Part shown: positions 6,329 to 23,817 of the stretch, one piece after another | Position numbering within the stretch: position 1 is the first letter of the stretch | Layout: each line of letters begins with the position of its first letter | Assembly: GCF_036884255.1 (NCBI RefSeq) | Contig: NZ_CP145605.1 | Span: 2,728,001-2,792,000 of the forward strand | Direction of reading: 5' to 3' | From: Paenibacillus tundrae | GTDB lineage: Bacteria > Bacillota > Bacilli > Paenibacillales > Paenibacillaceae | Length of the DNA: 64,000 bases | Position numbers and translations under genes: made by a program | Notes under the pieces: generated by a model | The model's database searches: none | Seen by the model: only the letters and a program-made list of their open reading frames with translations | Told to the model about the DNA's origin: nothing

Positions 6329-6354
6329 GACATCGTAATGAAGGAGACATTATT

Positions 6355-6609
6355 TTGGAATGCAGAACAGGTTGTGCCGCGTGTTGTATCGCCATTTCAA
6401 TATCTTCACCGATTCCTGGAATGGAGAATGGCAAGCCGGCAGGTGTACGCTGCGTACAACTTACGGAAGATAATCGTTGTAGTATTTTTGGACATCCAGA
6501 CCGTCCTGATGTGTGTAGTGAGTTACAGGCTTCATTCGATATGTGCGGTAGTACAGATCAAGAAGCTTTTCGTATCCTTAGCTGGCTCGAACAGGAAACG
6601 AATCCTTAA
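6355..6609 (+). CDS. YkgJ-family small cysteine-cluster protein
   Basis: This 84-residue protein begins MECRTGCAACCIAISI and has cysteines at C3, C7, C10 and C11, then CVQL, CSIF, a further Cys in DRPDVCSEL, and one late Cys. This spacing is typical of the YkgJ/CxxCxxCC family (UPF0153), thought to bind zinc or an Fe-S cluster, with no settled function. The start is TTG at 6355, placed 8 bases after AAGGAG; no in-frame ATG gives the full cysteine motif. It probably shares a transcript with the hydrolase upstream. The overlapping longer frame from 6338 is a shadow up to the lipoprotein ATG at 6617. Confidence 0.8.
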   Translation: MECRTGCAACCIAISISSPIPGMENGKPAGVRCVQLTEDNRCSIFGHPDRPDVCSELQASFDMCGSTDQEAFRILSWLEQETNP

Positions 6610-6616
6610 AACTAGG

Positions 6617-7213
6617 ATGAAGAGAATACTACTGGCCTGTATGATGATAACACTGATGCTAGCATCGGCTTGTGGAAATGTTGAAACGGCACGAACATCA
6701 AATGTATCATATAAGACTATATATGAAGCAGAAGAGTCATTTGTTCCAGAGGACACATCTTACTGTACTGCAGATCCTAGGTTTGGATAGTGAGACTTAA
6801 GAATATTTCAATGGCATTGGGAAAGTGGAGAAGCTCCTAGGATTTGCAAGCTCGTATAATGATGCTTCTGAATATCCAACTGGGCAAGAATTTATTGGAG
6901 ATGACCTTATAGTTTAAAAAAGACTTCTTCTCATCTAAAGGATTAAAAAACTATAGAAATTATTAATATGAGCTGAAGGATCCATTATATGAAATTACAA
7001 CAACGTGCGAAAAATCTGACGCTTTCAATTGACTATATAAAAAAGATATTCCTGATCTGAAAGCTAATGATGTAGTCAAAGCCATCGATATAAGTGATTA
7101 TTCAACTAAGCGCAGTATACCTTTCAGAGTAGTTCTTTTTTGTTATTAGTAACGATAGACTCATCTTAACATCAGAGGGAAAGATTTTTGAGCTTGAAAA
7201 AATAGCAGATTAA
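6617..7213 (+). pseudogene. Decayed lipoprotein gene with several disruptions
   Basis: An intact start (ATG 6617) encodes a lipoprotein signal, MKRILLACMMITLMLASAC, with a lipobox LASAC, but the frame stops at 6788-6790 after 57 residues. Coding-like sequence continues in other frames. 6801-6917 reads EYFNGIGKVEKLLGFASSYN and onward to a TAA. From about 6960 a frame reads YELKDPLYEITTTCEK, a TGA, then LYKKDIPDLKANDVVKAIDI. A T6 run at 7136-7141 breaks that frame; with one T removed it joins VVLFVISNDRLILTSEGKI to the stop at 7211. The original protein was probably about 200 residues. I do not recognise its family. Confidence 0.65.
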
Positions 7214-7567
7214 GCGCCTTAGCTAAGGTAATAAAAGAATGATCAGCATAAAAGCTTACCGTTCTTGTTTGTGTATTAAAAGATTAATTATATATACTGG
7301 GTATTTATGTATAGCCCACGCCTTTACAAAACGCTTCAAAAAGAACATCGCTCCTGTGTTTTATCATATAAATGATAAGCTAAAAGTCATAAAATCGTGA
7401 AATAAGTTAAGGATAGTGCATAAAGATTAAGAATCATTTTTATTGACTTATTATGTGAACGAATGGACAGAAAACTTGGAACCAAAAGACTCCCTATCCG
7501 CTAATCCTTGTGAAAGTCAAAAACCATCAGATCAATGCCTTATACCAACTGTAGACCTATCCATTCT
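7214..7567. other. Intergenic stretch before the STAND gene, no gene seen
   Basis: This AT-rich region between the decayed lipoprotein gene and the first STAND gene has no open frame of coding character. I could not identify a convincing promoter in it. Confidence 0.5.
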
Positions 7568-7591
7568 GATCAATTCTTTAACGAATTGATC
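7568..7591. promoter_or_regulatory. Perfect inverted repeat upstream of the STAND gene
   Basis: GATCAATTC (7568-7576) and GAATTGATC (7583-7591) form a perfect 9-base inverted repeat around TTTAAC. It ends 22 bases before the ribosome binding site of the STAND gene. It lacks a following T run, so it is unlikely to be a terminator. It could be an operator or an mRNA leader hairpin. Confidence 0.4.
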
Positions 7592-7629
7592 CGCTACATT
7601 AAACCTTTATTTTAGGAGATGATTCCAGA

Positions 7630-10600
7630 TTGAAAAGCTATAATGCAGGTGATCATGATCCGTATTGGTATGAATCTTTTATAGGTCTTAAACATGTACT
7701 GGAGATGCTCGAAACGGATTCCGGTATTGAGGCAGTCGCTTTTCAATCCACCATCATAGATAAGCTGGATGATGTTGTTGTGAAATATACAGACGGTAGA
7801 TTGATCTGTATGCAAATTAAGCATACGAGAGTGGAAAACAATTTGACACTGAGTGATCTTATTAGACCTGCTAGTAAAGGTTCGGCCTCCTTGATTGGAG
7901 GCATCGCTGCAGCATGGAGAGAAGGATCGAAGGCTAAACTGAATTGCATTCCGGTGCTTTATACAAATCGAAGTTTGGGAACGAACCCCTCTATCATATC
8001 GAATGGGTCCGTCTACCCTCCGCTTGCTACATTTTGGACCCAGATCCAAAATGAAATGAAGCGATCAGACAAGCTTTCTGATATTCAGTTGGATCCCACT
8101 TTAGGTGAAGCTTGGAATGAACTTCTGATACAATTGGATATTGTTGGATCGGACACAAACAAATATGAATTCCTAAAAAATCTCCAGATTAAATCCAACC
8201 AGCCCGAGCTGGATCAGCTGGAGAAGCAAATGATTGAAAAGATCGGCCAGATATTTGGGATAGCGTACCCATCCATGCAGAGTGATATTTTCGATAAGCT
8301 TGCGGGCAGTTTGCGACACTGGACAACATCGATACATGGGAAGATGGATTTCGTCAATCCAGAGGAAGTCTACCGCCGACTGTCTTTGTCTCTAAAGCTT
8401 GAAGACAATGAGCATCGACTTCCTCCACCGGTACCTTTTTTTAAATCGAGAATGCTTTTTATGGAGCGCTTAATAGAAGAATTGGCCTCAAACAAACAAC
8501 CTGTTATTTTCTTGAAAGGTAGCCCTGGATGCGGGAAGAGTAGTCTTGTCAGCCAACTGGCTGACGAAGCATCGCCGGTAATAGATCTTCGTTATCATGC
8601 TTTCAAGCCAATTACACCTGATATGAAAGAAATTCCTGCTGATGCAAATCGTTTAGTGGGAGCAGAGACTTTTTGGACGGCGATGCTTGATCAAATTCGC
8701 ATGAAGTTTGAAGGCAAGCGGTTCCGCTACCGTGTTCCAATTCGTAGTAATTATCTAACCGTGGCACAAATAAAGGAACATGTCTTGCGGCTGGCGCAAG
8801 AGTTATCGATTATTCAAAATAAGCCAACAGTTATTGCAATTGATGGAATTGACCATGCAGCAAGGTCGGGTTACATTTCCCATAAGCATGAGAATACATT
8901 TCTCCATTCGCTTGTCCATCCCGAGGAGGTTCCTGACGGAATTGTATTCTTACTCGCCGGACAGCCTCCAGAGGGTTATCCGGCATATCCGCATTGGTTG
9001 AGGGAAGACAGGGACGATGTCCTCCACCTTGAAGTGCCAACAGTTACAGAAAGCGATATTCGTCAGATGCTAACTCCCCATTTCCCAAGGGATTTCATGA
9101 ATCCTGCCATAAAGGTGATAAGGGAAACAGCCGCGGACAATACACTTGCTGTTGTATTCGCAGTTAGAGAAGCAATGGGCTGTAAGTCGGTCGAAGAGCT
9201 TGTAGAAAGACTTCAGTCTAAAAAGCTGCACGATGGCATTCATGCCTATTATGATCATATTTGGATCCATGCGGTACGCAAAATCCAGGAAAAGGTAAGC
9301 CACGAAATTGCATACCTTAACGAGAAGTTATCGGGCTGCTTTTCACTGTCTAGCGAACGGCTGGACGGAATTACGCTTCAAGGGATATTCTCAGATTCGC
9401 AGCTTACAGCAGTTGATTGGAACTATCTATTGAAGGATTTGGAGCCTCTTGTCACGGAACAAGAGAAAGGGAAGTTTGTATTATTCCATAACGATGTACG
9501 GGTGTATTTCATGCGCTATATTCGAACCCGCCCCGATATTGTGAAGGATATTGCAGGATCACTTGCGGACTTCTATTTGGCCGAATCTGAATATAAGATA
9601 GCACGTCATGCCGATTTGTTTTCCTTACTAAACTTAAGCAAGCGCAGTAAGGAAATTGTCTCGATTTTTAACCCGTCCTACATTATGGAGGCGTGGGCCA
9701 TCCGAAGGCCGATTGATGAGATTAGAGCTCAGTGCGGGGAAATACTGGCTACTGTTAAGCAACAACGAAACTGGGACGATATGGGAGTAACACTTGAAGC
9801 GATTCGTACGGTTCAACAGCTATTAAACTCTCATAATATGGCCAATGAGCGTAATTATATCATAGAAGAAGATCTTCGCGATCCTGCTTTCCTCCCGTCG
9901 GAGGGAGTTGTGAATCCGATCAAAGAATGGAATATACACTTGTTGAAGAATGTACTGATAGACATCCGAAAGCTTGTCAAACATAATAAATTTGACCGCG
10001 CACGGCAAGTGATGGAAAGATGGTTTCAGCGTAATGGCATCACGCCATTTAAACTGATGGAACTTTTGAGTGAATACGAGGTATACGAATCTATCTCTAA
10101 CCACGATAAGCCTGGCAAACGTTTTCTTGAATGGGTTAGTGACTATGGAGAAGTCGCAGGTTTAATATCAGCCGAAGTTTGGCGGATTCAAGCTGTGGAG
10201 TTAGGGAACTTTGCTAAAAAACAGGTGGCGAGTACTTATTGTGATGGATTTCTCCAGGAATCGCTCCATTTATGTCGCTTCTCCTTTTTTAGATATCTGA
10301 GAAGTTACTTGCCCCTTCTTGAACCGGAGAAAAAAATTGCTTTAGCCGAACGAATGGTAGATAGAGAGAGATGGACGGAGATTCGATACCTGCTGAAATA
10401 TACAGAAGCTCATTCTTTGTCTTTTCAACATCGAATCATGCTGGGCATGTTCAGTGCCATCGTGAATTTTGAAACAGATCGATTTGTAATCCCCGTCGTT
10501 GATCAGGGTTTTGACATCTTGGAACACATGGAAATGACTTATGCTTCCGATGCTAAGCTCTATTCTTATATGTGTTTTCTCTGTGGCTGGACTAGCCCCG

Positions 10601-13599
10601 AATCTAATCTGGAGCAGCTCGCTAGTGAAGCAATGGAGGCTTATAATTCCGTGGATCGGGACCCGAGGGCGATGAATATGGTTCATGTTCTGGTTCATAG
10701 CACCTGCCGTATGGGAGCATACTACCGTTTATCCATGGAAGCAGAGTTCAAACTGTCAAAATTCGATATGAACATTATTATTTACTTGATAGAACAACTC
10801 TATTTAATGGATCAAAATATTTATGTCCATTTGGTGGGATATATCGAAGTGCGCTCATTTTTCATGAAAATGGCCATATATCTATCCGGTAAAGATGAGG
10901 AATTCGATAAGGTTCTGCACCCCGTCATAAGGGATAGTATGATTGCAGGTGATGTGTTTTATTTAGATATGGATCTTGTTTGGGGGTATCTGGATCTACA
11001 TGGCGATAGAAAGGCGATGGAGATCATTTTTCATCGTTGGGTAGGAGAAGAGGGGACAATTTGGGGAGACGACATCCAAAAGGGTGTACCTTGGGTCGAA
11101 AATTTTATTGCCCTTGCAGATAAATATCAGATGGAGGAGAGAGCCCGATATCTCAAGGACAAGCTTGCCTGGAGATGGTTTGGTATGACAGCCAGACGCT
11201 CGGTGTCAGTAGGACATCTTGTGCGTTGGGTAGAACTCCTGATTAAAACTAAACCGACATCGTGGAAGAAGCAAGGAATGGATTTATTGGGTTTATGCAA
11301 GCAGCTTGGTAATGAGCCTAATCAAGTTACTGATAGTGCGGTGAGTATAGTAATGGCGGCTGCAGCAAAAGACGGGGTGGAGACACTTTGGTCTGTTTTC
11401 AACGAAAATGACATGCTTGATGTTAGTAAATTCGCACATTATAAGGTGATTTTTGATGTGTTAATCCTTATGCTTAAGGATTGTACGATTACAGAAGATG
11501 ATTTGACAGCTATTTGGCTGTTGACTATTGGAGGATTAAGCTGGAGAGACCGTAACAGCAGAGCGTACATTGAGGATATGAGAAAATGCGTTCTAAAGGC
11601 TGCTCATCGGCTTGGATATACCAATCTCGCTGTATATATGAAGCAAGAGACCTCATATCATTTTGACATCCACAATGACAGAGACAGGGACAATAGACCG
11701 GTAAGATGGTTTGAAACACGCCGGAAGCATTTATCGCATTGGGAAAGCACCCGCAAACTAGCTGAGAATAAGGTTAGAAAGTTATCTCTGGAAGAAGCAT
11801 TTAGTGACTTCCATCGTTTTGTCAGAACTTTGGATTCAAATGGAGGCCTCATGGATCATGTGGAGGCTTTCTATTATGCGGAGATTTTAGTTCGTAAATT
11901 AAGTAAAGAACCTTCCCACAAATATAAGGAATATAGTGAGATATTGTTCGAATTCGCTGGGGCTCACGCAGCAATATTAAAACACAACAGAATGGATAGC
12001 TATATTGAAGAATTTTATTCCACATTTATTAGTTTTCCCTTGGACGATGAAACCAGGTGGAGAGTACTTGAGCCACTTATTCCAGAAACAATTGAGGTAA
12101 CAACATTATCATACTTCATAAATAAGCTGGAAGAAATGCTTCAGGTACGTGCAGAGGAAATCGGATCACAGAAAATTGAGGATTCAACAAATCAAGTGAT
12201 TGATACTTATGAGCGATGGTTCAGAGGGGATGTGAAAGTGGCATCGACCATTAATTATTCCACGGAAAATTCAATGAATCAGATGTCATGGAAGCAGTTC
12301 ACCGTGAATATTCTGCTTAGGAATTTATCGAGTGGTAACGAACATCAAATTGAAGCCGCATTACAAGGACTATGGCTGTGTGTAAAGCGAGACAATCAGG
12401 TTATCCATAACCTGATCTCTGAATGGGATACTATTGGCGAGTCAGCGAGAGAATGGATACTACTATTGTTTGAACGTATTGCCTCGGAGTTCCCATCATA
12501 CTATGAATCGATGAAACCGCTACTGCTTAAGTTAAAAACCGAAGGAATGATGCTGCGCACGCAGTCCAATCTGATAATAGAAACGTTTGAACGTGGACTG
12601 AATGTTACGGGGAGGTCAACTTCTCCTTGGCTTCTGCGAAAAATTAAAGGATTCAAGTCGTATTTTTCCAAAGTTAAAGAAAGAACCGAAATGCAAATTT
12701 TTGATTACCCCTTATCTGAAGACCGCTTCTTTAATCAGCGACTCTATCAAATTGCTAGTCTATTTCCGGAACTTGTAACGGAACTTCTTGTTGAGTTTGA
12801 TGCTTCAGAAGATGCGGATGTAGATATGGAAACAAAGCTGCTGCAGATCATAGAGAGTCGGATAGAAAAAGAAACATGGGAGCGAACTTCCGTATATAAC
12901 GAGGTGCGGGCTTATCTTCCTTGCGATGATCCCTTTCTGTTATTAAATCCTCCAAGTTCATTCAGAAGATCCGATGGGTGGCTCAAAACTGGATTGATAG
13001 CAGCTTCGAAATTTGATGCAGCCTTGAAATTTGATGAGGATGATGCCATCGCGCAATTCATGAGTCAAGCTGAGAAAGGGCTGAATAAGGACCACATACT
13101 GCTCGGTGCTGCTATGTTCCACTTCAACCTCATCGAAGGGTACTACTTTACGAGTAGATTATCAGAAAGTAATGGGTATAACAGATTCACATCCAGCGGA
13201 AGATCATTCCTATTCTACAATTCTGAACCAATCAAAAAAAGGGATCTTAGTCAGGAGCTATTCTATACGTTTAGGCATATTAATGGACAAAAAATTCCTT
13301 ACAGCAGTACTGTTCTCTTGGTACCAAGCACAGTCTTCCGTTCACTCGGCTGGTTACCGTCAACCGCTAATCCATTAGTTTGGGAAAAGCAGGGGAAGCG
13401 GATGATGTGGATGGAGCAGATATTTAGTCCATATCTTGAGGAAGTACAGCCGTTTCTCCAACGCTGGGTGTGTACAAGAGAAGGGTATCAGGAAATCAAT
13501 AGGGTAAAAAGAAACCTTAATTATATAGTGACATTAGAACCTTTTCTAAACAATTTTTCTATGATGGATTTGCCGAACAATATTAGGGTTTACCAATGA
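7630..13599 (+). CDS. Avs-like STAND NTPase with N-terminal Cap4-type nuclease domain
   Basis: This 1989-residue protein has three parts. The N-terminus (about 1-210) looks like a PD-(D/E)XK nuclease of the Cap4/DUF4297 kind, with D47/D48 followed by the Q62-I-K64 motif in ICMQIKHTR. A STAND-type NTPase follows, with Walker A GSPGCGKSS (297-305), Walker B VIAIDGIDHA (401-410) and a sensor-like strand IVFLLAGQPPEGYP. The remaining 1400 or so residues are mostly helical and repeat-like, as expected of a target-sensing region. This architecture matches Avs (AVAST) anti-phage proteins, which recognise phage proteins and then degrade DNA. The start is TTG 7630, 11 bases after AGGAG. The subfamily and trigger are unknown. 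Confidence 0.72.
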   Translation: MKSYNAGDHDPYWYESFIGLKHVLEMLETDSGIEAVAFQSTIIDKLDDVVVKYTDGRLICMQIKHTRVENNLTLSDLIRPASKGSASLIGGIAAAWREGSKAKLNCIPVLYTNRSLGTNPSIISNGSVYPPLATFWTQIQNEMKRSDKLSDIQLDPTLGEAWNELLIQLDIVGSDTNKYEFLKNLQIKSNQPELDQLEKQMIEKIGQIFGIAYPSMQSDIFDKLAGSLRHWTTSIHGKMDFVNPEEVYRRLSLSLKLEDNEHRLPPPVPFFKSRMLFMERLIEELASNKQPVIFLKGSPGCGKSSLVSQLADEASPVIDLRYHAFKPITPDMKEIPADANRLVGAETFWTAMLDQIRMKFEGKRFRYRVPIRSNYLTVAQIKEHVLRLAQELSIIQNKPTVIAIDGIDHAARSGYISHKHENTFLHSLVHPEEVPDGIVFLLAGQPPEGYPAYPHWLREDRDDVLHLEVPTVTESDIRQMLTPHFPRDFMNPAIKVIRETAADNTLAVVFAVREAMGCKSVEELVERLQSKKLHDGIHAYYDHIWIHAVRKIQEKVSHEIAYLNEKLSGCFSLSSERLDGITLQGIFSDSQLTAVDWNYLLKDLEPLVTEQEKGKFVLFHNDVRVYFMRYIRTRPDIVKDIAGSLADFYLAESEYKIARHADLFSLLNLSKRSKEIVSIFNPSYIMEAWAIRRPIDEIRAQCGEILATVKQQRNWDDMGVTLEAIRTVQQLLNSHNMANERNYIIEEDLRDPAFLPSEGVVNPIKEWNIHLLKNVLIDIRKLVKHNKFDRARQVMERWFQRNGITPFKLMELLSEYEVYESISNHDKPGKRFLEWVSDYGEVAGLISAEVWRIQAVELGNFAKKQVASTYCDGFLQESLHLCRFSFFRYLRSYLPLLEPEKKIALAERMVDRERWTEIRYLLKYTEAHSLSFQHRIMLGMFSAIVNFETDRFVIPVVDQGFDILEHMEMTYASDAKLYSYMCFLCGWTSPESNLEQLASEAMEAYNSVDRDPRAMNMVHVLVHSTCRMGAYYRLSMEAEFKLSKFDMNIIIYLIEQLYLMDQNIYVHLVGYIEVRSFFMKMAIYLSGKDEEFDKVLHPVIRDSMIAGDVFYLDMDLVWGYLDLHGDRKAMEIIFHRWVGEEGTIWGDDIQKGVPWVENFIALADKYQMEERARYLKDKLAWRWFGMTARRSVSVGHLVRWVELLIKTKPTSWKKQGMDLLGLCKQLGNEPNQVTDSAVSIVMAAAAKDGVETLWSVFNENDMLDVSKFAHYKVIFDVLILMLKDCTITEDDLTAIWLLTIGGLSWRDRNSRAYIEDMRKCVLKAAHRLGYTNLAVYMKQETSYHFDIHNDRDRDNRPVRWFETRRKHLSHWESTRKLAENKVRKLSLEEAFSDFHRFVRTLDSNGGLMDHVEAFYYAEILVRKLSKEPSHKYKEYSEILFEFAGAHAAILKHNRMDSYIEEFYSTFISFPLDDETRWRVLEPLIPETIEVTTLSYFINKLEEMLQVRAEEIGSQKIEDSTNQVIDTYERWFRGDVKVASTINYSTENSMNQMSWKQFTVNILLRNLSSGNEHQIEAALQGLWLCVKRDNQVIHNLISEWDTIGESAREWILLLFERIASEFPSYYESMKPLLLKLKTEGMMLRTQSNLIIETFERGLNVTGRSTSPWLLRKIKGFKSYFSKVKERTEMQIFDYPLSEDRFFNQRLYQIASLFPELVTELLVEFDASEDADVDMETKLLQIIESRIEKETWERTSVYNEVRAYLPCDDPFLLLNPPSSFRRSDGWLKTGLIAASKFDAALKFDEDDAIAQFMSQAEKGLNKDHILLGAAMFHFNLIEGYYFTSRLSESNGYNRFTSSGRSFLFYNSEPIKKRDLSQELFYTFRHINGQKIPYSSTVLLVPSTVFRSLGWLPSTANPLVWEKQGKRMMWMEQIFSPYLEEVQPFLQRWVCTREGYQEINRVKRNLNYIVTLEPFLNNFSMMDLPNNIRVYQ

Positions 13600-13682
13600 A
13601 TATAAATAAAAAAATATCTGTTATTTGTTAGCTAAAGGAGAGTTAACTTATACCTTTTGAACGAGATTGAAAGCTTTCAAGC

Positions 13683-13763
13683 ATGGGCATATTAGATAAT
13701 CGTTATCCGCAGATATTGCGTTCTTATGGATCTAACCGAGCACCTATCCTATGGAATGGTTGA
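13683..13763 (+). pseudogene. Short DprA/Smf-like remnant
   Basis: A 26-codon open stretch reads MGILDNRYPQILRSYG and ends in APILWNG before a TGA. This resembles the entry strand of DprA/Smf proteins, where a D-x-x-YP-x-x-L segment is followed by a PP-x-L-x-x-G turn. The nucleotide-binding core that should follow is absent. AAAGGAG lies at about 13634. I infer a relic of a DprA-like gene; the match is short and could be chance. Confidence 0.3.
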
Positions 13764-14639
13764 GATTGTTGATTATTAAAAAGAAGGCTAATTCAGGTAC
13801 GAACCCCAAGCGCATATGATTTCCGAGGGATGTTCGCACCTCGAATATACCTTTTGGCAACATTGATATTGAGCTTTTTCACGGCTGTGGTTTATAATGA
13901 GAAAAATAGTTGTTAGAAATACCGGAATTACGCTAAGGTATGATGATATATCCTTATTACATGTATTTCCCCTGTCGCACTCTGTACGGAGTACATAGAT
14001 TGAAATAAGACTGCTCTTTTACCAATTAGAGTAACCTTCCAGCCGTACTCCGTGTATGGAGTTCGTGGATTTAATTGATGCAGTTAAGGCAATAAATCTC
14101 AATTCCAAGCGATTACTGAAAAATGTATTTCGCTATTATTTTGAGCAAACCATTTCTTTACTCTAATAGTGTAAGCAATCTGAATAGTATTGTTTAAGAA
14201 AGTGTCGCTCAATCGAGCGACATTTTTTGTGGGTTAATAATCGATTCCATATGTGGAACAGAGTTATGGCTCGGTTAGGAGTAGCGGCCATTGATGTTTT
14301 CGGCACATCGGCGACTTACCATGAGCACCTATAGACGAACGGCGAGCATCTGAAGCCATGCTTCAGGATCTACAGCTTGCAAAGTTCGCATATAAGTTCT
14401 CGCTAGATGGTGCATGCTATACTGGTAAGACGAGAGGGTTTCTAAAGTACGCTAGATAATATTCATAGATGGATACGTTGAGTTTAAATCTATAAGCGCA
14501 TGTAGAAGACAATGGACTAATCGTCCGGGGTACATGGATCTCAAGCAGAGAGAAAAAGAGCAGTCGAAATTTTAAGCCGTCTTTATAAAAAAATTGTACA
14601 ATATAGTTATCATACCTAGACTAAAGGAGTATTCTCACG
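13764..14639. other. Gene-free spacer between the two STAND genes with coding relics
   Basis: No intact gene is present. A terminator lies at 14203-14228. Between about 14270 and 14575 there are broken coding-like pieces in different frames, for example SEAMLQDLQLAKFAYKFSLD and DGYVEFKSISACRRQW, suggesting a decayed gene of unknown family. Two similar stretches near 13987 (GTACGGAGTACATAGATT) and 14053 (GTATGGAGTTCGTGGATT) are an imperfect direct repeat. The 10-base palindrome ATTGTACAAT (14593-14602) precedes the second STAND gene. The function of all of these is unknown. Confidence 0.4.
14203..14228 (+). terminator. Intrinsic terminator in the inter-STAND spacer
   Basis: TGTCGCTC and GAGCGACA form an 8-base stem around a 4-base loop (14203-14222), followed by TTTTTT. 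It is 600 bases beyond the first STAND gene, so it may belong to the decayed gene before it or to a long 3' untranslated region. Confidence 0.75.
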
Positions 14640-17600
14640 ATGTCCATTGAGGTAACAGGAACACAAGGTTACGATTATCAGTACTTACAAACTGTCTATC
14701 TAGTTCTCCTTATGTGGGGACGAGATGGTCTTGAACTCATCGTAGAAAAGAAAGATGGTGAAGATGCAGAGCTTCACTTTTCATTTGAAGGGAATATAGT
14801 TACGATCGAAATCCAGGTAAAAAGTGAACAAGGCAATCTTGAAATTGATTCCCTTGCTAAGTGGGTTGGACACTTTCCTGAAAAAAGGGAAAATGGTAAT
14901 TTACTGGAGCGTATTGAAAACGATACACAGCGGAAGGCGTTATTCATTACTAGAAGTCGCTGTTCGGATTCTACAAAAACCTTTCTAAGTCCGATTGGGA
15001 CTATTGATGAGCATTCAATTTCTCCGCTTCAGGGTCAACTAGCGGACACGTTCTTAAATGCATTTTCAAAAGCATTTGAAGAGAAAACTCCAACACCATT
15101 AAAGAAAAAACGAGATGACTTTTGTAAACATCAGGCTGGGCATTTGAGTAAAAATAAAGGAAGGCTTCGTGATATTGCCCAGCGTATCTTGATTTGGGAG
15201 CGTGCAGACGTGATCTCAATCCAAAATGAAGTGATTCGTCTGCTGAAGCTTCAGCATATCCCAGAACAAGTAGCTCCTACAGTAATTTCCCAGATGGAAA
15301 AAGCGGTAAGAATAGCTCGGGATGTAAGAGGAGATGTTGTTCCTCTTATACGAGAAATATTGAATAACTTTGCAGGTAACCGTACATTTTTGCGGCCTCT
15401 TCACGTGCCCAGGGAGAATATAGACCTATTAGACCGAGATTTAGAAGAAAAAAACGTATTACTTCTTACGGGAATTTCTTTCTGCGGGAAATCACATATG
15501 GCCGAGTGGATAGCAGAACAATTTCGTGCTGATCAAGGATTTACCTATGTAAAAGAAAATCAGTTGGATTCCGCTTACAGGTATCTTATGGTAGCAAGTA
15601 GCGAAAGCAGAATTTGTTTTCTTGAGGACCCTTTCGGTCACACAAATCTTAATCCAGATGCTATGAATACGTGGTCTCGATTGTATGATCTCACAACAAA
15701 ACTGGCTCCGCATCGAAAACTCATTGTTACTTCAAGGAAGGACCTAATTCAATCTCTCAATGGAAGTTCATCTCTTGAAGCCTGGTCGCTTGGAGAATGT
15801 CAGTGGAGGGACTTAACTGTATCTGATGCTAATTACGCTATTGATGTTTGGACTGCTTATTCTAATACAAAGCATCTGCCAGATAATGTGGAGGAACTTG
15901 TAGTGGACGGAATGAGAATGAACACATCAGCTGTGTTGCAACCAGGCCAACTCCGTCATTTGGCATATAGTGAGCAGGCTAAATTGATAGATAGAAGTTT
16001 CGAGGAATTGGCTAGTCTGGCTAGATTCGATGCTGATCAACTTGGGCAGTCCTTTCTGATCCGGAAGCCAATTGAACAGATATCACTAATGACTATGGTG
16101 CTCGGTAACCGTGTAGGTATCGGAATGGTGGAAGAGGCCTTTTTTTCTCATTTGCAATCTGTATATGATGAATTGAGACTAACGGAAGGGATAGGGGAGG
16201 CTGAGGCTTTCTGCGAAGAACTGGAGCGGGCAGGATACATTCAATCTGTAAATGGCCACTGGATGTTTTCTCACCCTACATATTATGAAGCGGCCATGCA
16301 TGTGGTAGAGAATCAACAAAGATTTGGACAGAAACGTTTACTAGTTATCCTCAGACATCTGCTTAGTAGCGAATCTGTCGCTATTATGCTTAATGTTATC
16401 CGTAGTTTAGAGCGGATATATGAAGCTTATGCGGTAAAAGACATTCGTAGTGAGGTCAGAAAGATGGCATTACAAGCATTAACAAACTCTTACCCGACCA
16501 TGAGAGACGAAGCCCTCGTTTTATTGGCTTCTAGGTTTAAAGAGCTGCCACCCAATGACATACAAGTGATCATGAGCTACATCAAAAGCTATCATTTTTC
16601 AGACTATAGTATCGAATGGCAAGATGGTATTCCAAAACTGAAAGAACATACACAAAACATAGTATGGCAAAGAATGATTGAACACCAGAATGAAGGTATC
16701 ACAAAAGAGCTGTTTTTAGCTATTGCGGAACGTCTTCAATCGCCGGATGAAGCATTCAAGGTCATCCCCGAAGAAGCATGGCAACTTGCTCGCTATTTGG
16801 ATGTACATGAGTTGGATGCTCAAATCAAACTACCGGTACTTAAGCAGTTGTTAACCTATAAAGATGCGTTTATTCGTGAGGCGGCGGCCTTTAGTCTTGT
16901 TCACGAGTATGGTGAGGATCGGAGACACCTTGATTTAGTTTTAAGCGATCCTCATCCTTTCGTGGTACTCCAGGGAATCCAAGGTTGCTTTCAAGGATGG
17001 AATCGTTGGAGTTTGGGGGAGCGTGATTGGGTTCGAAAGAAACTTCAGGAAGCGCTGATGGTAAAAGTAAACTGCGTGGCGGCCCATGAGTTCATAATCC
17101 AATTCTCTCAAAAGCCACATCGGTTTCGTTTGAATTGGGAGGTCATATCTTTGGAAGAAAGGGAGGATTTACATCGTCTTTGGGGCACACTTCTTCCCGT
17201 TTTCCTTGAGAATGTACCTGACGAATTTCTTGAAATTGATGAAGCTTATTTATTTGAAACAACATCAAGAGAAGCATCGGCGTTTACCGAAGATCAGGTT
17301 GTACAGATAACTAAGGCGTGGGTAGAATGGGTGGAGCGGACAATCTCGCGCAAACGTCCTAATGACTATGGAATGGGCTATCTTGATTTTTTACTGAATC
17401 ATACAAACCGAAGTTTTACTTACAGAGAGCAGCTGTCAATACGTCTATTGAGCCATCAAAATTCTTATATTGTATCTATGTCACTCGCGGAGTACGTAAA
17501 TTACTGGCCACACCTTCATCAACAAGAGCGAGCTCAAGTCATAAAGTTATTACAGAGCGACCGTAGTGATGTTCGCTGGCTTAAAGCTATTGCTCTGACA

Positions 17601-18452
17601 CGAGAGGAGGTATCCTCAGAAATATGCCTTCTACTACTTGGTGAGGCGAATGCACTATCTTTACCTCTTGCCATTACTGAACTGATTTCAAAGACAGACT
17701 CACAACTATTAATGGACTGTGTAGAGGTGTTTGATGCGGAGCGTGGAGAATTTTACAACCTGGTTGGTACATCTCGGGATTACAGTTGGACATCTATAGC
17801 CTTGGAAATATTAAGGTATCCCGAGCATCCTGCATTCGCTAATGCACTCGCTTATGCGTTGAAACGTGTAATTAGTACATCTGCCACCAAGAGTTTTAAG
17901 AAATTTGTTCTACAAGAATGCATTAATATATGTAAATATGGGTCAAAGAACACCGTGCGCTTAATGGTGGAAATTATTCTTGAATGGACAGTAAGAGTTA
18001 GTGGAGCAGAAAGCCGGGAATTATGGGAGATCGTTTTCCAGAATCTCGAAGAAACGGAGAGAGAGGAGATCACAGTTAAATTAGCGGATGTCATTGAAGC
18101 TATAAGCAACAATTGTGATTCACCAGTCGAATTAATTGGAAGTCATGCATATTCACTTTTGCTCACTCATCATCTGACTTCTGACCATATCATATGGTAT
18201 CTACACAAGAATAACGGTTTTATAGGAGACGGAATGGTTACCTTTTTAGATTTCATATTTAACCAAGATCCACCACCAAGGGTACACAAAAGTTATCTAA
18301 TTGTACAGAGTCATTTTAGAGATAATGAGGATGAACATATGCTAAACTTGTTAAATAAGGTGGAGACATTGCGAAAAAAATTGATCAAAACATCTTCCGA
18401 CAAGAAGTATGTTTATCATTCCAGGGAACCGCTTGAGGGATGGAAAGAGTAA
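14640..18452 (+). CDS. Nuclease-nSTAND3-like NTPase with C-terminal HEAT-like repeats
   Basis: This 1270-residue protein begins TGTQGYDYQYLQTVYLVLL, which resembles the G-x-x-YQ entry helix of Cap4-like nuclease domains. D42 and E57-I-Q59-V-K61 fit a PD-(D/E)XK centre. The NTPase has Walker A GISFCGKS (278-285) and a Walker B-like RICFLEDPFG (323-332); the EDPFG form is typical of nSTAND3 P-loop domains. From about residue 590 onward the sequence shows helical pairs like HEAT/ARM repeats, for example DEALVLLASRF and REAAAFSLVHEYG. The likely role is phage sensing followed by DNA cleavage. The ATG follows AAAGGAG. It is not a duplicate of the first STAND gene, since P-loop and C-terminus differ. 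Confidence 0.7.
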   Translation: MSIEVTGTQGYDYQYLQTVYLVLLMWGRDGLELIVEKKDGEDAELHFSFEGNIVTIEIQVKSEQGNLEIDSLAKWVGHFPEKRENGNLLERIENDTQRKALFITRSRCSDSTKTFLSPIGTIDEHSISPLQGQLADTFLNAFSKAFEEKTPTPLKKKRDDFCKHQAGHLSKNKGRLRDIAQRILIWERADVISIQNEVIRLLKLQHIPEQVAPTVISQMEKAVRIARDVRGDVVPLIREILNNFAGNRTFLRPLHVPRENIDLLDRDLEEKNVLLLTGISFCGKSHMAEWIAEQFRADQGFTYVKENQLDSAYRYLMVASSESRICFLEDPFGHTNLNPDAMNTWSRLYDLTTKLAPHRKLIVTSRKDLIQSLNGSSSLEAWSLGECQWRDLTVSDANYAIDVWTAYSNTKHLPDNVEELVVDGMRMNTSAVLQPGQLRHLAYSEQAKLIDRSFEELASLARFDADQLGQSFLIRKPIEQISLMTMVLGNRVGIGMVEEAFFSHLQSVYDELRLTEGIGEAEAFCEELERAGYIQSVNGHWMFSHPTYYEAAMHVVENQQRFGQKRLLVILRHLLSSESVAIMLNVIRSLERIYEAYAVKDIRSEVRKMALQALTNSYPTMRDEALVLLASRFKELPPNDIQVIMSYIKSYHFSDYSIEWQDGIPKLKEHTQNIVWQRMIEHQNEGITKELFLAIAERLQSPDEAFKVIPEEAWQLARYLDVHELDAQIKLPVLKQLLTYKDAFIREAAAFSLVHEYGEDRRHLDLVLSDPHPFVVLQGIQGCFQGWNRWSLGERDWVRKKLQEALMVKVNCVAAHEFIIQFSQKPHRFRLNWEVISLEEREDLHRLWGTLLPVFLENVPDEFLEIDEAYLFETTSREASAFTEDQVVQITKAWVEWVERTISRKRPNDYGMGYLDFLLNHTNRSFTYREQLSIRLLSHQNSYIVSMSLAEYVNYWPHLHQQERAQVIKLLQSDRSDVRWLKAIALTREEVSSEICLLLLGEANALSLPLAITELISKTDSQLLMDCVEVFDAERGEFYNLVGTSRDYSWTSIALEILRYPEHPAFANALAYALKRVISTSATKSFKKFVLQECINICKYGSKNTVRLMVEIILEWTVRVSGAESRELWEIVFQNLEETEREEITVKLADVIEAISNNCDSPVELIGSHAYSLLLTHHLTSDHIIWYLHKNNGFIGDGMVTFLDFIFNQDPPPRVHKSYLIVQSHFRDNEDEHMLNLLNKVETLRKKLIKTSSDKKYVYHSREPLEGWKE

Positions 18453-18479
18453 TTAAAGCCATAAGTACTAATGGTATTA

Positions 18480-18513
18480 CCCCCTCTAAGTAGACACTTG
18501 GGGGGATATTTTT
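18480..18513 (+). terminator. Strong hairpin with T run, terminator or insertion-sequence end
   Basis: CCCCTCTAAGT pairs with ACTTGGGGGG around AGAC (18480-18504), allowing G-T wobbles, then ATATTTTT. It would terminate the STAND transcript 30 bases after the stop. Because the OrfA remnant starts directly after it, it may instead be the left end of the degenerate IS3-family element. Confidence 0.6.
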
Positions 18514-18894
18514 ATGGCGAAAAAGGGACAAATATTTCAGACGTATACCGAAGAACTCAAATTAAATGAAGTTAGATCGCATATCGAAGGTTCTGCAAGT
18601 TAAAAGATGGTTGCTGAGCGAGAATGAATTCGAAACTATTGACAGTTAAGGGTGTGGGTAAAAAAGTGGAAAAATGGAGAATCGTTTGATGAGAGCAAAA
18701 ATAGTTTTTCTAATCTACTGAAGGGACACCCTCTTACGAGTTTTGGCAGAGGAAGAACGAGATTATCTTCAAGCAAAGGTGAATTATTTAAAAAGCGGTA
18801 TCCAAATCTAGTAAAGGAGAAGCTTTTGAGCCAGCGAGAGAACTACACTATCTTAGATAAACTGCTTTCTTCGCTTCTTCAATATACTGAGTAA
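18514..18894 (+). pseudogene. Degenerate IS3-family transposase OrfA
   Basis: ATG 18514 opens MAKKGQIFQTYTEELKLNEV, the helix-turn-helix start typical of IS3-family (IS150-like) OrfA proteins. The frame stops after EGSAS at 18602-18604. Recognisable OrfA sequence resumes with VWVKKWKNGESFDESKN (from about 18652) and LLKGHPLTSF. Another shift separates EERDYLQAKVNYLKKRYPNL, which is in a different frame from the upstream piece. No OrfB (DDE integrase) is present. This is an old insertion remnant, consistent with a defence island that has exchanged DNA. Confidence 0.85.
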
Positions 18895-19261
18895 AGGTTT
18901 GGCTTTTCTGCGCTGGCTCCGCAAAGATCCCTCTGGGTTTTTTAGTGTTGAGTTCATGTTAACATGACTCTTATTTCACTTGTCTACCTTTGAGATTACT
19001 AGAGCAGGCTACTATTCTTAAGTTAAAGTTTAAAGGAGCTTTTATTAAGAGATAATTTTGTGGAATTCACAGTAGTGTTACAGTACTTGGTACTCTTGTT
19101 TTTATTTGTGAACAAAAAAAAGGGGAATATTTCGTGTAATGAATGCTATGAGCCGAACAAGCCAAAATACTCTTTTCCACTCTGGAATTAATCTCCATAC
19201 ACAAACAACCACTTAAGATGATTCATTGAATATGTGACTCGTTCACCATGACTTAATTAAT
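18895..19261. other. Gene-free stretch with a near-palindrome
   Basis: No gene is seen. GAGTTCATGTT at 18950-18960 and AACATGACTC at 18961-18970 make a near-perfect palindrome with one unpaired T. A weak CCC-TCT-GGG-TTTTTT hairpin lies at about 18929-18943. The stretch probably includes the eroded right part of the IS3-family element. Confidence 0.35.
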
Positions 19262-19311
19262 AAAAAATTTGAGACAAATATTGTTCCAAATATGGATGCG
19301 AACAATATTTG
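19262..19311 (-). terminator. Intrinsic terminator of the ptuA-ptuB operon
   Basis: CAAATATTGTTC (19275-19286) and GAACAATATTTG (19300-19311) form a perfect 12-base stem. Read on the minus strand, it is followed by CTCAAATTTTTTATT. It lies about 88 bases after the HNH gene's stop codon. Confidence 0.8.
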
Positions 19312-19398
19312 CCTTTCAAACGTACATCTCTCGTCCGAATGATCGTCAATTCCTTCTTCCTCAGGAGAAAGTATTTTGATTTGCTGACCTGTTTTTGC

Positions 19399-20538
19399 TC
19401 AACTACGTGTGATAATATCGAACGCCAGCTTGCTTAGGGGGGAATTTCCGAGCTTATCTTCCTGCAGCGCGTGTCCGTAGAGGAAGAGCTGAATTTCTTG
19501 TTCTGTCAGCTGCATATTGTCAAAAAGAGCGGTCAAATCCTTTTTATAGGCGTCCTTGTATACGTATTGTTTGTAAAGTAATTCTCTTACATATTCCTTA
19601 TGGCTCTGGTAAACCTCTTGTAACTGAAAAAGCCGAATGCTGCCTTCCAATTGATCAGCTCGACTTCCAGTATGCGTTTGATGCAGTTTAATATTAAAAA
19701 GAGTATTACCACCGATTAAAGAATCGCTGTTTGAAGAGGGGGTAAGCGCGACATCAAAATAAGTATCACGGTCAAAACCGGACTCGTATGGATATAATAT
19801 CTCAGACCCTTTTGCAAGCTTGAAGCGTGAGTTGCATATCTGACAGGAAGGCACGAAATTATACAGAGACAAAGATAACAGTTTGAAAATGGAATTTGGA
19901 TAAAAATGATCCAGATCTGCCGTTGTTTTTTTTGCTGTACCGTCTTTGTAAGACGTTATATACTGCCGGTTGCAATAGGGACAAACTTCTATACCGATCC
20001 GGTGCAGGAGCTCATGACGTAAGCCTCTACTTATGTTAGAATAGTCGATTATTTGAGCGATAAGAGCGTTTAATTGATCCATATCAGCTTTGACATCATG
20101 AACGAACTGACTGTAATTTTTGTTCGAACTGAGAAAAGAACGATGGTCTGGTGCATTGGTGTGTTTGTTGAGCCATGGATTGCTGTACTTGTGCACATGA
20201 GCTCTACGAATGGAAATACGATCTGCTTTTTTCTTGCCGGGTAGCTTGGCATCCACCTGCTCAAAGCTGAAGTGTAGAAATTTGCAAGTGAGTAAATAGT
20301 ATTCAATTTCTGGAATCTCAGCTATTATCTCGTCAAATGTTCCAGTTAACAATATTTTAAGGAAGCTTTCATTCAGATTACCGGTCGTCCGGGTTACAAA
20401 CCAAGTACGAAGATTTTTGCCCGTAAATGGATTTATGCCCAGAGTTGCCGCATGGAAGCATGTACTGACAGTGCTGTAAATTTCTTTATAGTAGTAATCG
20501 CGGACGTTTAACAAACGCTGAGAATCAATTTTAATCAT
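19399..20538 (-). CDS. ptuB: HNH endonuclease of a Septu-type (PtuB-like) defence pair
   Basis: This 379-residue protein has the layout of an HNH nuclease with paired CxxC zinc ligands: CPYC at 186-189, DLDHFYP at 208-214 with D210-H211 as the HNH core, and NFVPSCQICNS (227-237) supplying the Asn and the second CxxC. In Septu systems the HNH protein PtuB is the effector nuclease and works with the ATPase PtuA. The start overlaps the last 8 bases of the ATPase gene, so the two are translationally coupled. It is longer than typical PtuB proteins; the extra 180 N-terminal residues are unassigned and may contact the ATPase. Other HNH/ATPase modules remain possible. Confidence 0.65.
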   Translation of the reverse strand: MIKIDSQRLLNVRDYYYKEIYSTVSTCFHAATLGINPFTGKNLRTWFVTRTTGNLNESFLKILLTGTFDEIIAEIPEIEYYLLTCKFLHFSFEQVDAKLPGKKKADRISIRRAHVHKYSNPWLNKHTNAPDHRSFLSSNKNYSQFVHDVKADMDQLNALIAQIIDYSNISRGLRHELLHRIGIEVCPYCNRQYITSYKDGTAKKTTADLDHFYPNSIFKLLSLSLYNFVPSCQICNSRFKLAKGSEILYPYESGFDRDTYFDVALTPSSNSDSLIGGNTLFNIKLHQTHTGSRADQLEGSIRLFQLQEVYQSHKEYVRELLYKQYVYKDAYKKDLTALFDNMQLTEQEIQLFLYGHALQEDKLGNSPLSKLAFDIITRS

Positions 20539-22468
20539 TATTTTGTCTACCTTCGCGCTGTCTATTCAGCTTTTCCCGCTCTATTTTAAGTTCTTTTTCC
20601 ATTTGCTCTATTTTTTTCATTTGTAGAAGTTCGGGTTCAAGTTTGAGAAGTCGTTCGTTCAGCATTTGCGTCAGCTTTTTGCGCAGCACATCTTCGCCTA
20701 TACCGTTAATCAGGCCGCTGATTTGCTCCACCTCACTGGGATTGTACGAATCTAGACGCTCAATCCTGCGAAGAATCCGCTTGAACACTTGCGTCGCAAA
20801 TTCACCAACTGGAGCCCCAATGAAAAAATCGCTTTTCATAATATCGTAAATATTACTCATCAATCCAAAATCTGCTTGTTGTACTTCGCGTTTGATTTTC
20901 CCGCTATCATTTATAATTTTAATGCAGTTAATATGTTCCTTTGGTACGTCAGAAACCATAAATGGCGAATGAGTAGTCAATAGTATTTGAAATTTGACCG
21001 CTCGTTCAAAATAGCCTTGCTCAAGAAACTTGACCAGGTTCGCGATATAGCGTCTTGACCATTCTGGATGGAAGGAGGCATCGGGTTCGTCAATAAGTAG
21101 CAGAATAGTTTCGACTTTCGAGTCATTCAATGCGAGATGAACCGCTTTGAACAGATTAGCGAAGCCATTGATGAATTCCAACTCACCTTTGCTCATGCGC
21201 TGATACGTTACATGTAAGGTAGAACCGCCAAGTCGTGGATTCTCATCGTCATAAAGGTGCAAAAAGCGAACCAACTGAGGATCAAAGTCTTCTTTTAAAG
21301 AGACAGTAGCTACTAGTGAAGAAATGAAGTAGTGTTCATCGAGATCAATAAGAGCCGAAATGATTTGTTCAAGAGCATCCAAATCAAGGAGGGGATCGAA
21401 CTTATGCATGACCAGGGTCATCGTCTTCTGAAGCACTCGCATCGCCTGTAATAAATATTTTGTACGACCAATTAAGTCGTCACTGTCTAAATCAATTTGA
21501 GCAAGCACCGAGTGAAAAGTTTGAATGTCTTTTTTATCCCGGCTTTGTTTGAGCATGATCCAAAGCGAAGCAAGAATCGCTTCTAAATGACGAATAATAA
21601 ACTTTTCTTTAGAGGTCCACCGGTCTTGTGGATCTGCAGCTTGGTAAAGACGAATAGGAGCGATGGGTTTAAAAATTAGCGCTTCAGCTTTTTTTCTGTA
21701 CAGGTTGAAATTGAGTAGATGTTTTTTTTCTTCAAGTGTGCTGTATGCAGGGAAAATTTCTTCCTCTCGTTTCAAAGAAAGCAAGGCATTCTCAATCGTA
21801 TAATCCTGCTCCAGCAAGAGAAATTCTTTTGTCATAAACTGATACAAATTGGCATAGAGTGGCTGGCTTAAATACTGCCTTTGAAAACCGACATAGGTTT
21901 CGTGTACGAACTGGTTTGACTGTCCGCTGTACCAATGCTGCTTGACATCATTCGCCAGGTAAAGAGGTAAAAGTCGCTCTCTAATTAAAGATATTTGGTT
22001 GTTTTCTGTGTAGGCTTGCTGTATATATTCGGAGGCGATAAGCCCCTCAGTTTCTTGTTCATACTTGACCGTAATACAGTACTCGACGTGAATATCAAGC
22101 GGTAGACCTTGAACGTTACCGAGCAACTCAGAATGATAGCCTTCAATCAAAAAAGTATTTGTATCGACATGATAGATCGCGAACCAACTATTTTCCTCAA
22201 ATGGAAAGCGTTTAACCCGGTTTTGCTTGACTGAGCCAAGCAAATCGAGTAACGTGCTTTTCCCGGCTCCGTTTTTACCGATAACCAAATTAATATTATG
22301 AATTCGCTCGCTCCAAAGTCCGTCGTATGAATCTTTTTTTGGAGTAAGCTTAATTTCTTGGGATGACGGATTATATGAGATGTCAAATGAGTTGGTAAAG
22401 TTAAAATCTTGTTTTTCGTAGCAAGTGTCAAGTTTATGAAGGTAAACGTACAATAGCTTTGCACTCAT
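20531..22468 (-). CDS. ptuA: ABC/SMC-type ATPase of a Septu-type (PtuA-like) defence pair
   Basis: This 645-residue ATPase has Walker A GKNGAGKST (64-72), the ABC signature region YQRMSKGELEFINGF (422-436), Walker B ILLLIDEPD (455-463) with D-loop, and H-loop His500 in LLTTHSPFMVSDVP. A long helical insert separates the two halves of the ATPase fold, as in Rad50/SMC-like and OLD-like proteins. The C-terminus (about 605-640) is a charged coiled coil. Followed by an overlapping HNH gene, it matches Septu PtuA. No reverse transcriptase is nearby, so this is not a retron-coupled copy. AAGGAGAG precedes the ATG. Confidence 0.68.
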   Translation of the reverse strand: MSAKLLYVYLHKLDTCYEKQDFNFTNSFDISYNPSSQEIKLTPKKDSYDGLWSERIHNINLVIGKNGAGKSTLLDLLGSVKQNRVKRFPFEENSWFAIYHVDTNTFLIEGYHSELLGNVQGLPLDIHVEYCITVKYEQETEGLIASEYIQQAYTENNQISLIRERLLPLYLANDVKQHWYSGQSNQFVHETYVGFQRQYLSQPLYANLYQFMTKEFLLLEQDYTIENALLSLKREEEIFPAYSTLEEKKHLLNFNLYRKKAEALIFKPIAPIRLYQAADPQDRWTSKEKFIIRHLEAILASLWIMLKQSRDKKDIQTFHSVLAQIDLDSDDLIGRTKYLLQAMRVLQKTMTLVMHKFDPLLDLDALEQIISALIDLDEHYFISSLVATVSLKEDFDPQLVRFLHLYDDENPRLGGSTLHVTYQRMSKGELEFINGFANLFKAVHLALNDSKVETILLLIDEPDASFHPEWSRRYIANLVKFLEQGYFERAVKFQILLTTHSPFMVSDVPKEHINCIKIINDSGKIKREVQQADFGLMSNIYDIMKSDFFIGAPVGEFATQVFKRILRRIERLDSYNPSEVEQISGLINGIGEDVLRKKLTQMLNERLLKLEPELLQMKKIEQMEKELKIEREKLNRQREGRQNND

Positions 22469-22513
22469 TCTCGAAAATTTCTCTCCTTTGGAAGTAACAT
22501 AGCGTTCCTATTT

Positions 22514-22549
22514 ATTATAAGTGCTCTCTCGTTTTTTTGCGAGGAGCAC
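22514..22549 (-). promoter_or_regulatory. Candidate ptuA-ptuB promoter with adjacent inverted repeat
   Basis: On the minus strand a TATAAT hexamer (22514-22519) lies about 45 bases before the ptuA start. Immediately upstream is an inverted repeat, GTGCTC-T-CTCG and CGAG-GAGCAC around a T-rich loop (22521-22549), which would cover the -35 zone. No good -35 hexamer is seen. The arrangement suggests an operator or autoregulated promoter; the hairpin could also be an unrelated terminator. Confidence 0.4.
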
Positions 22550-23129
22550 GTTACAAGCTTCCTTGAAGCATACTTGAGAACTGAGGCATTTTAATTGATG
22601 TCGCAGATTTAGCGACTTTATAATTTTATCAGTATACTTAAGTATTATTTTAGCCAAGGACAAGCCCTTATACCCTTGCTACAAGGGCTGAATCCGAACT
22701 TGGTATAAAAAGGGTTATTGACTTGTCGGACAACTCTTACTTGCTCTCTATCTATGGTAATTATCTGTCTCCAAAAGAATTATTCTCAATAATTGAACAT
22801 CATTCAACAACAAAACGATTGAGGGGCAGTTTATACTGACTGTAGTTACTATAATTTAATGACCATTACACGAAGAGTGGCTTATAATAGATGAAGGAAG
22901 GAATAACATGTTAAAACGGAAAAGAGAAGATAAAAGGAAATAGAGCAAGAGAATTTGCAAAGGGCAGAGTTTAAAAGGCTTGCAATGTGTTCTCTGGTGC
23001 ATCAAGCCAGTCACCCCATTCTCGACAACCATAACTCTCCCATCAGGATCATTAAAAAGGTAGAGCAGACACTTCAATTGTTCGCTGGAACAATGTAGGA
23101 TCTGGGTCAATACCATGTGGGTCTCTTAA
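22550..23129. other. Gene-free stretch with an orphan open segment
   Basis: No complete gene is found. 22654-22839 is open without a start codon and reads in part IKRVIDLSDNSYLLSIYGNY then LSPKELFSIIEHHSTTKRL, which has coding character but no family I recognise. A short plus-strand frame with a ribosome binding site at about 22900 stops after 11 codons. The minus strand at about 22990-23110 also has pieces that look protein-like. The region seems to be a graveyard of small genes next to the defence operon. Confidence 0.35.
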
Positions 23130-23282
23130 TGTGCAGGACATTCCGATGAAAAGTGGATTTCCAATAGTACAGATGGATGGGGCTGGGGAGTGACCAGAAA
23201 GGTGAATATGATTCAAACTGACTATTCACATGAACTGCTTGATTATTTGGAGAAAACTAAGAGTAAGTTAGCGAAAAAATGA
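23130..23282 (+). pseudogene. 3' remnant of an unidentified small gene
   Basis: After a TAA at 23127-23129 a 50-codon open stretch reads SDEKWISNSTDGWGWGVTRK and ends in LLDYLEKTKSKLAKK with TGA at 23280-23282. A perfect intrinsic terminator follows 4 bases later, as expected for a genuine gene end. No in-frame start or ribosome binding site is seen, so only the 3' part is preserved. I do not recognise the family. Confidence 0.45.
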
Positions 23283-23285
23283 TGG

Positions 23286-23308
23286 AAAGGGGCAAATGCC
23301 CCTTTTTT
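23286..23308 (+). terminator. Intrinsic terminator after the orphan remnant
   Basis: AAAGGGGCA and TGCCCCTTT form a GC-rich stem with a two-base loop, followed by T residues to 23308. Confidence 0.85.
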
Positions 23309-23817
23309 ACATATGAATAGACCTTGAAGAAGGATGAACAGCCCTGATAACTTAAAGTTTGTCATCATGAACACCAATATGCGTGATTCATTATGCTACT
23401 TTTTCCAATCGGATAGGTCGAACACAGAGCCAATCTTTATGATCTAACAAGGCTGTACAAGTCTGCGAATGAAGAAAAGTCTTACCGGTTTTTCGGTAGT
23501 AGAGTCTCTTTTTTGTCTTTAAAGTTACTAATGAATAATATCAAATTATATTACTCGATAAAATAGGAGGGTGATGATTATTTTGTTAATGTAGAATGAC
23601 ATTAAGTTACCCACCACGCTGGAATTTGACATAAGGTTCTCCATACCCTGGAGAAAATATAAAAGGAAATTGTCTGGAATAACATAGATTTTCGTAATTT
23701 AGCTCATCAGTAAGGAATACTTGGAAATAGTGATGCAGAGTAAAACTAAAATAATCGAAGGAAAGGGTGTATTCATATTTCAATTAGATATTTTAAAAAA
23801 TAAAAAATTGAATCATC
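23309..23817. other. Gene-free AT-rich stretch, no feature recognised
   Basis: No open frame of coding character and no clear regulatory element is seen between the orphan remnant's terminator and the terminator of the AbrB-family gene. The region is unusually AT-rich towards its 3' end. Confidence 0.4.

Follow-up and report, generated by a model that had tools for sequence, protein, structure and literature searches.

What kind of system is encoded when two neighbouring genes each join a nuclease-like N-terminus to a STAND nucleoside triphosphatase (NTPase)? Such genes, called here P1 and P2, lie within 64,000 nucleotides of Paenibacillus tundrae DNA (NZ_CP145605.1, positions 2,728,001 to 2,792,000), hereafter the window; the loci and genomes compared with it carry L and G numbers. 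An earlier note, made from the letters of this DNA, had described two large same-strand genes with a nuclease-like domain and a P-loop NTPase in each. Both reading frames are indeed open, on the plus strand and at the positions given, and profile searches matched both kinds of domain in P1 as well as in P2. By analogy with studied systems, each gene probably encodes an NLR-like receptor for defence that is of the Avs kind and acts independently as a single protein, and in which a trigger would cause oligomerisation, activation of the nuclease and loss of DNA.

P1 starts with a TTG codon preceded by AGGAGA. Its N-terminus matches the Pfam family Cap4_nuclease (PF14130) over residues 12-144 (E 2.3e-4, below the cut-off) and the PADLOC profile of LmuA over residues 18-250 (E 2e-10), a profile that the N-terminal end of P2 matches too. 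QIK stands at residues 62-64, where the earlier note had placed it, a Walker A motif begins at residue 297 and a Walker B-like IDGIDH at residue 404. E15, D47, D48, Q62, K64 and H65 are invariant in 6/6 nuclease-bearing rows of an alignment comprising the window protein, L038, L010, L039, L013 and L060, in which L010 equals L013 across the N-terminal stretch compared. From these profiles and motifs, the N-terminus is predicted to be a PD-(D/E)XK nuclease. The PADLOC Avs1b profile matches P1 over residues 271-547 only (E 1e-12, 44 bits). Considering its length and the absence of any other domain match, the long C-terminal part may be a helical sensor.

P2 starts with an ATG codon preceded by AAAGGAG. 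EIQVK is found at residues 57-61, again as previously located, Walker A begins at residue 278 and EDPFG at residue 329. The Pfam family nSTAND3 (PF20720) is matched above its cut-off (E 3.9e-16), and HEAT models are matched weakly, below cut-off. In an alignment of 22 rows, made of the window protein and 21 others (L005, L008, L009, L025, L033-L036 and also L047 stand outside it), E41, D42, Q59, K61, G283, K284, D330 and P331 are invariant in all rows, whereas 21 rows have E36 and 20 have E57. Because the nuclease motif is invariant in relatives having 23-27% identity to the window protein, and because the model has a nuclease fold, this motif goes beyond a chance resemblance. The modelled nuclease, taken with its helical linker, matches structures of LmuA, Hachiman, HerA-DUF and Cap4, the modelled NTPase matches MalT, and the C-terminal model (pLDDT 84.5, pTM 0.79) has HEAT proteins as best structural matches. 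Judged from its modelled fold, the N-terminus of P2 is thus a predicted PD-(D/E)XK nuclease, and a sensing role of the solenoid is likely. The nSTAND3-type EDPFG motif and the HEAT-like repeats read earlier from the letters are both recovered, the former by the nSTAND3 profile and the latter as a HEAT solenoid in the model.

The mechanism envisaged builds on the domain order, the catalytic-type and Walker residues, the predicted folds of P2, the solitary occurrence of the genes and their location in an island; trigger binding, oligomerisation, DNA cleavage and an abortive outcome would follow the example of Avs, MalT and LmuA/Cap4 proteins. In the resting state, the STAND NTPase would keep the protein inactive. 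The C-terminal domain, which in P2 is a HEAT-like solenoid and in P1 a part without detected similarity to it, would bind an invader-made product, and this binding would induce nucleotide exchange in the NTPase and oligomerisation. The oligomer would then gather the N-terminal Cap4/LmuA-type nuclease domains and switch on DNA cleavage, which would end the infection and probably kill the cell too. DNA may be the trigger, or else a protein of the phage or a product of a plasmid.

Relatives of P2 are scattered. An alignment-based scan of genome contigs gave 101 candidate stretches, with 23 loci encoding P2 relatives; a single-protein scan of genome contigs with P2 gave no relative. One intact P2-type open reading frame (ORF) of 1264-1302 residues is present at 18 of the 23 loci, the relative at L025 reaches the contig end, and at L033-L036 the gene is broken into two ORFs, with matches confined to residues 1-465. 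Near-copies occur among the loci (L004/L015/L016 and L017/L018). Thirteen plasmid records match P2, two of them with at least 80% covered. Within Bacillota, the only other cases seen are a broken gene on a Lysinibacillus plasmid (L005), whose pieces have 26-54% identity, and, on a P. polymyxa plasmid, a scrap of 114 residues with 50% identity. Viral contigs contributed one relative, L047, with an ORF of 1277 residues. Searching with PF20720 at E<=0.001 matched 299/299 genomes and 14/14 controls, an uninformative tally; the family cut-off was passed by 125 of these genomes and by 7/14 controls, and 14 places score at least 39 bits, the window P2 included.

Two of these relatives have peculiar surroundings. 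In Bradyrhizobium (L006, 7636-9745), the P2 relative lies downstream of an operon annotated as multiubiquitin, ThiF and DUF6527, and the annotated ORF opens with a short stretch of weak resemblance to patatin before the P2 part begins, which would suit the replacement of a patatin gene by P2. The other relative (L007) is carried by a conjugative Klebsiella plasmid and is close, on annotation only, to insertion sequence (IS) elements and aminoglycoside resistance genes.

The neighbourhood of P2 relatives was represented by 294 ORFs within 7 kb at 23 loci, namely 19 of the 23 genome loci and four plasmid loci (L005, L009 and L033-L036 fall outside this set). No conserved operon partner of P2 was found among the neighbours at these 23 loci; SIR2 and HerA recur but are not regarded as partners, because they are confined to the near-copies L004/L015/L016. 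Clear defence genes are SIR2 and HerA (L015), Upx (L020), GajB (L021), HamB (L024) and a pAgo-associated restriction endonuclease (REase; L032), weaker ones mad2 (L031) and PDC-M58A (L026), and plasmid genes are represented by RepB and RepC (L017) and TraI (L021). From the interpretation offered in the earlier note, the nuclease-STAND architecture and a defence setting are supported.

Relatives of P1 are few. In the 99 relatives searched, P1 was matched in its own genome and by a single scrap of 41 residues that has an internal stop. Among 299 genomes of the class, eight match P1, and the nuclease is covered in the own genome, in G101 (full length, 62% identity to P1 across its 1984 residues) and in G329 (an open frame of 596 residues); among 398 genomes of the phylum, twelve match, G592 being the additional nuclease-covering one. 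The plasmid search returned 11 records, all from Leptospira, with at least 80% of the query covered in four, and viral contigs returned no P1 relative. Some relatives are shortened. The Leptospira noguchii proteins L012 and L011 have no nuclease, L012 beginning just upstream of Walker A and L011 past it. L013 and L046 stop shortly after the NTPase and have IS genes nearby: an annotated IS3 at the Leptospira locus L013, and at L046 (G329), on both sides, two gene pairs that are 48-51% alike and whose second genes are istB-like. Three proteins of about 2000 residues from other Bacillota (L061, L062 and L063) are related to P1 in or around the NTPase; L061 gives matches of its own to Cap4 nuclease and NACHT, L062 to NPHP3_N and NACHT. 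In G101, a TIR (ThsB-like) gene (L045, 4448-4975) is 2 kb away from the P1 relative, which is the closest one.

It may be imagined that P1 and P2 act together, for instance one as sensor and the other as executor. They are adjacent on the same strand, and in a profile comparison they align weakly along 123 columns that span the linker and Walker A (prob 30, E 5.5e-4). Moreover, although the earlier note had called the two proteins unlike, their nuclease ends are alike, since a QxK motif and the LmuA match are common to both. However, the genes are 1.04 kb apart, each with its own ribosome-binding site, and are probably separate transcription units, because they are separated by an 8-bp stem and a run of six T after it. 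The word tandem thus holds for neighbours on one strand, not for an operon. In addition, no P1 relative was detected at the loci with P2 relatives (0/29, for ORFs of at least 60 residues within at most 10 kb of flank and at E<=1e-3), and no P2 relative at the P1-relative loci L010-L013, L038, L039, L045, L046 and L060. G101, with its full-length P1, gave no P2 match, two of its twelve candidates having been scored. As the loci of their relatives do not overlap, functional pairing was rejected, the notion of the pair as a unit is given up, and joint action appears highly improbable. By BLAST, P1 and P2 show no similarity, C-termini included (best E 1.4), and profile comparison of the C-termini found none either (prob 0.5). 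Because the C-termini show no similarity, it is plausible, as had been suggested, that the two proteins cover different phage triggers.

Three further explanations concern the genes taken singly. The nucleases could respond to a nucleotide signal, to damaged DNA or to its ends, as happens in systems with related nuclease modules, the solenoid being structural or autoinhibitory. This would agree with the resemblance of nuclease and linker to LmuA, Hachiman and Cap4 structures and to the PADLOC LmuA profile, but the domain searches returned no SAVED, SMC or helicase domain for P1 or P2, and a MalT-like NTPase with a long solenoid is the make-up of protein- or ligand-sensing STANDs; such an activation is unlikely. 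The targets could also be plasmids or other mobile elements, or the genes could serve competition between elements, instead of acting on phages. Several relatives do lie on plasmids or near RepB/RepC, TraI and Tn3 transposase genes; nevertheless, plasmids and islands also carry phage defence, and some of the neighbours are known anti-phage genes, so that this possibility is thought quite unlikely. Finally, the frequency of broken or shortened relatives (L033-L036, L005, L008, L009, L013, L039) and the short coding scraps at the island edges would suit genes in decay that have lost their activity in this strain, a very improbable situation given that neither window ORF is shortened or lacks a motif, and that both have plausible ribosome-binding sites. 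Independent defence receptors are therefore the preferred reading, against which some observations weigh. P2 is rare near home, where it is found in its own genome only (1/99 relatives, 1/398 of the class), and neither P1 nor P2 was matched in the phage records searched. Besides, the neighbours scanned were 20 of the 294, picked by hand (ten with Pfam, ten with PADLOC) and with no background control, and no family was found for 3/10 and 4/10 of them, respectively; later Pfam scans named, among these seven of the 20, a Tn3 transposase, an RTX-type protein and a YspA-like SLOG protein.

Both genes are carried by an inserted island (Table 1), which stands between two core genes and is strain-specific. 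In 75 genomes of the genus, the left flanking gene was found in 56 and the right one in 37. The two lie side by side on one contig in 28 other genomes, 388-1493 bp apart as compared with 17.5 kb in the window (distances are taken from matched ends, and the match is partial in a few of the 28). The insertion is absent from 28/28 of these comparable genomes. Five of them were aligned to the window: with the three nearest, including G866 of the same species, the alignment runs to position 6605 and resumes at 23799 or 23808, and with the two more distant genomes the agreement is approximate. The G+C content is 0.401 in the island and 0.446 and 0.450 in its flanks. ORFs of at least 150 residues are limited to the four defence genes and to 6338-6790, which overlaps the left edge; there is thus no full-length integrase or transposase among them, shorter ORFs being outside the scan, and no tRNA was seen in the island. 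The PDC-M62B/A pair is convergent with P2 and represents a separate system in the same island. Near the right edge, positions 22500-23800 are gene-poor, with short, broken-looking coding scraps.

Table 1. Features of the island and of the two nuclease-STAND genes, in window positions.
Feature	Positions	Strand	Basis
Inserted island, 17,193 bp	6606..23798	.	blastn to L105, L106, L107; 86-95 bp in three near relatives
P1, 1989 residues: Cap4/LmuA-like nuclease, STAND NTPase, long C-terminal part	7630..13599	+	open ORF, profiles, motifs
P1 predicted nuclease and linker (about residues 1-250)	7630..8380	+	PF14130, LmuA profile, invariant residues
P1 STAND NTPase (residues 271-547)	8440..9270	+	PADLOC Avs1b 1e-12; hhalign to genuine Avs1b, prob 97
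Intrinsic terminator, 8-bp stem, 4-base loop, six T	14203..14228	+	read by eye; tool lists stem on - strand only
P2, 1270 residues: Cap4/LmuA-type nuclease, nSTAND3 NTPase, HEAT-type solenoid	14640..18452	+	profiles, alignment, models
P2 predicted nuclease and linker (residues 1-249)	14640..15386	+	
P2 nSTAND3 NTPase core (residues 260-377)	15417..15770	+	PF20720 E 3.9e-16
P2 C-terminal HEAT-like helical solenoid, likely sensor (residues 560-1270)	16317..18449	+	model
HNH protein, PADLOC candidate PDC-M62B	19399..20538	-	E 5.4e-57
AAA ATPase, PADLOC candidate PDC-M62A	20531..22468	-	E 1.1e-51

How do P1 and P2 relate to catalogued systems? According to PMC12799240, Avs1 is composed of the metallo-beta-lactamase (MBL) nuclease Avs1a and the trypsin-STAND protein Avs1b. 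A genuine Avs1b, L064, was obtained in the class search (1059 bits over 6-1929, an N-terminal trypsin-like domain and an adjoining MBL gene). The NTPase of P1 aligns to it by hhalign (prob 97, 241 columns, 22% identity) and the lengths are similar (1989 and 1940 residues). In contrast, P1 has a Cap4-like nuclease at the place of the trypsin, and its C-terminal part is unmatched to L064 in the profile comparison. No trypsin match was found in P1 at E<=1 with Pfam, which detects trypsin in L064, and no MBL gene lies beside P1, the largest ORF on either strand being 53 residues long at 6800-7610 and 47 between P1 and P2. Membership of Avs1 is not supported on these grounds, the Avs1b profile being matched in the NTPase only. 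P1 is accordingly not filed as Avs1, because effector and C-terminal part differ and the NTPase alone is related; from its earlier description as Avs-like, the NTPase is what remains. PADLOC includes models of other Avs types, such as the nuclease-STAND types Avs2-Avs4. Among its Avs-named profiles, Avs1b was matched at E<=1 by P1 alone and none by P2. Sequence searches of solved structures with P1 and P2 returned no Avs, LmuA or Cap4 chain.

As regards P2, PMC12931631 gives Avs5 an nSTAND3 NTPase (PF20720) and a SIR2 effector. The NTPase type is common to both, whereas P2 bears a nuclease fold instead of SIR2, for which Pfam gave no match at E<=1. A closer idea is PDC-S73, a single-gene PADLOC candidate that, as P2 does, combines an REase-type nuclease with nSTAND3. 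Bacillota proteins of 763-782 residues match it over their full length (4/4, 384-579 bits), and those scanned join Mrr_cat to nSTAND3 (3/3). Since PDC-S73 joins these two domains, the REase-nSTAND3 combination is already catalogued and P2 is another branch of it. P2 differs by its Cap4/LmuA-type nuclease, its 1270 residues and its long solenoid. PDC-S73 is matched weakly by 16/22 members of the P2 N-terminal alignment, by full-length P2 relatives across 70-96 NTPase residues only (7/7), and not at all by the window P2 against the 752-position model at E<=1. P2 thus gives no full-length match to this model, as the true members do. P2 may be an undescribed Avs branch, considering that no Avs profile matches it and that its nuclease type, length and HEAT sensor are unlike PDC-S73. 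No title or abstract on its family was found in the literature, a weak negative, the primary Avs literature being outside the scope.

The nuclease-STAND kind is already known; these two versions of it are poorly catalogued. Tentatively, both may be placed together as follows. P2 would represent an undescribed, scattered, single-gene Avs-like branch with its own phage trigger, made of a Cap4/LmuA-type nuclease, nSTAND3 and a HEAT-like sensor, and spanning Bacillota, Alpha- and Gammaproteobacteria, plasmids and one contig of a viral collection. P1 would be a protease-free relative of Avs1, which swaps the two-step protease/MBL effector for a nuclease fused to a related NTPase. The two genes illustrate the free recombination of one nuclease module with the STAND chassis: in P1, a fused nuclease substitutes, on an Avs1-like NTPase, for a protease and a separate pro-nuclease, and P2 provides a third effector type for nSTAND3. 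If active, both proteins add sensor domains, and the P2 family, with a conserved length of about 1270 residues, is compact enough for testing. Current ideas on the working of such systems stay unchanged.

Finally, the nucleases of LmuA, Cap4, Hachiman and HerA-DUF occur in combination with SMC, SAVED, helicase or HerA parts. For a Lamassu system, made of LmuA and an SMC-type LmuB, no partner gene was found here, since the only other ORFs of at least 150 residues in the island form the PDC-M62 pair, which runs on the opposite strand. The resemblance to these four nucleases extends to the fold and motif of the nuclease and to the helical linker after it, but the nuclease is here joined to a STAND protein.

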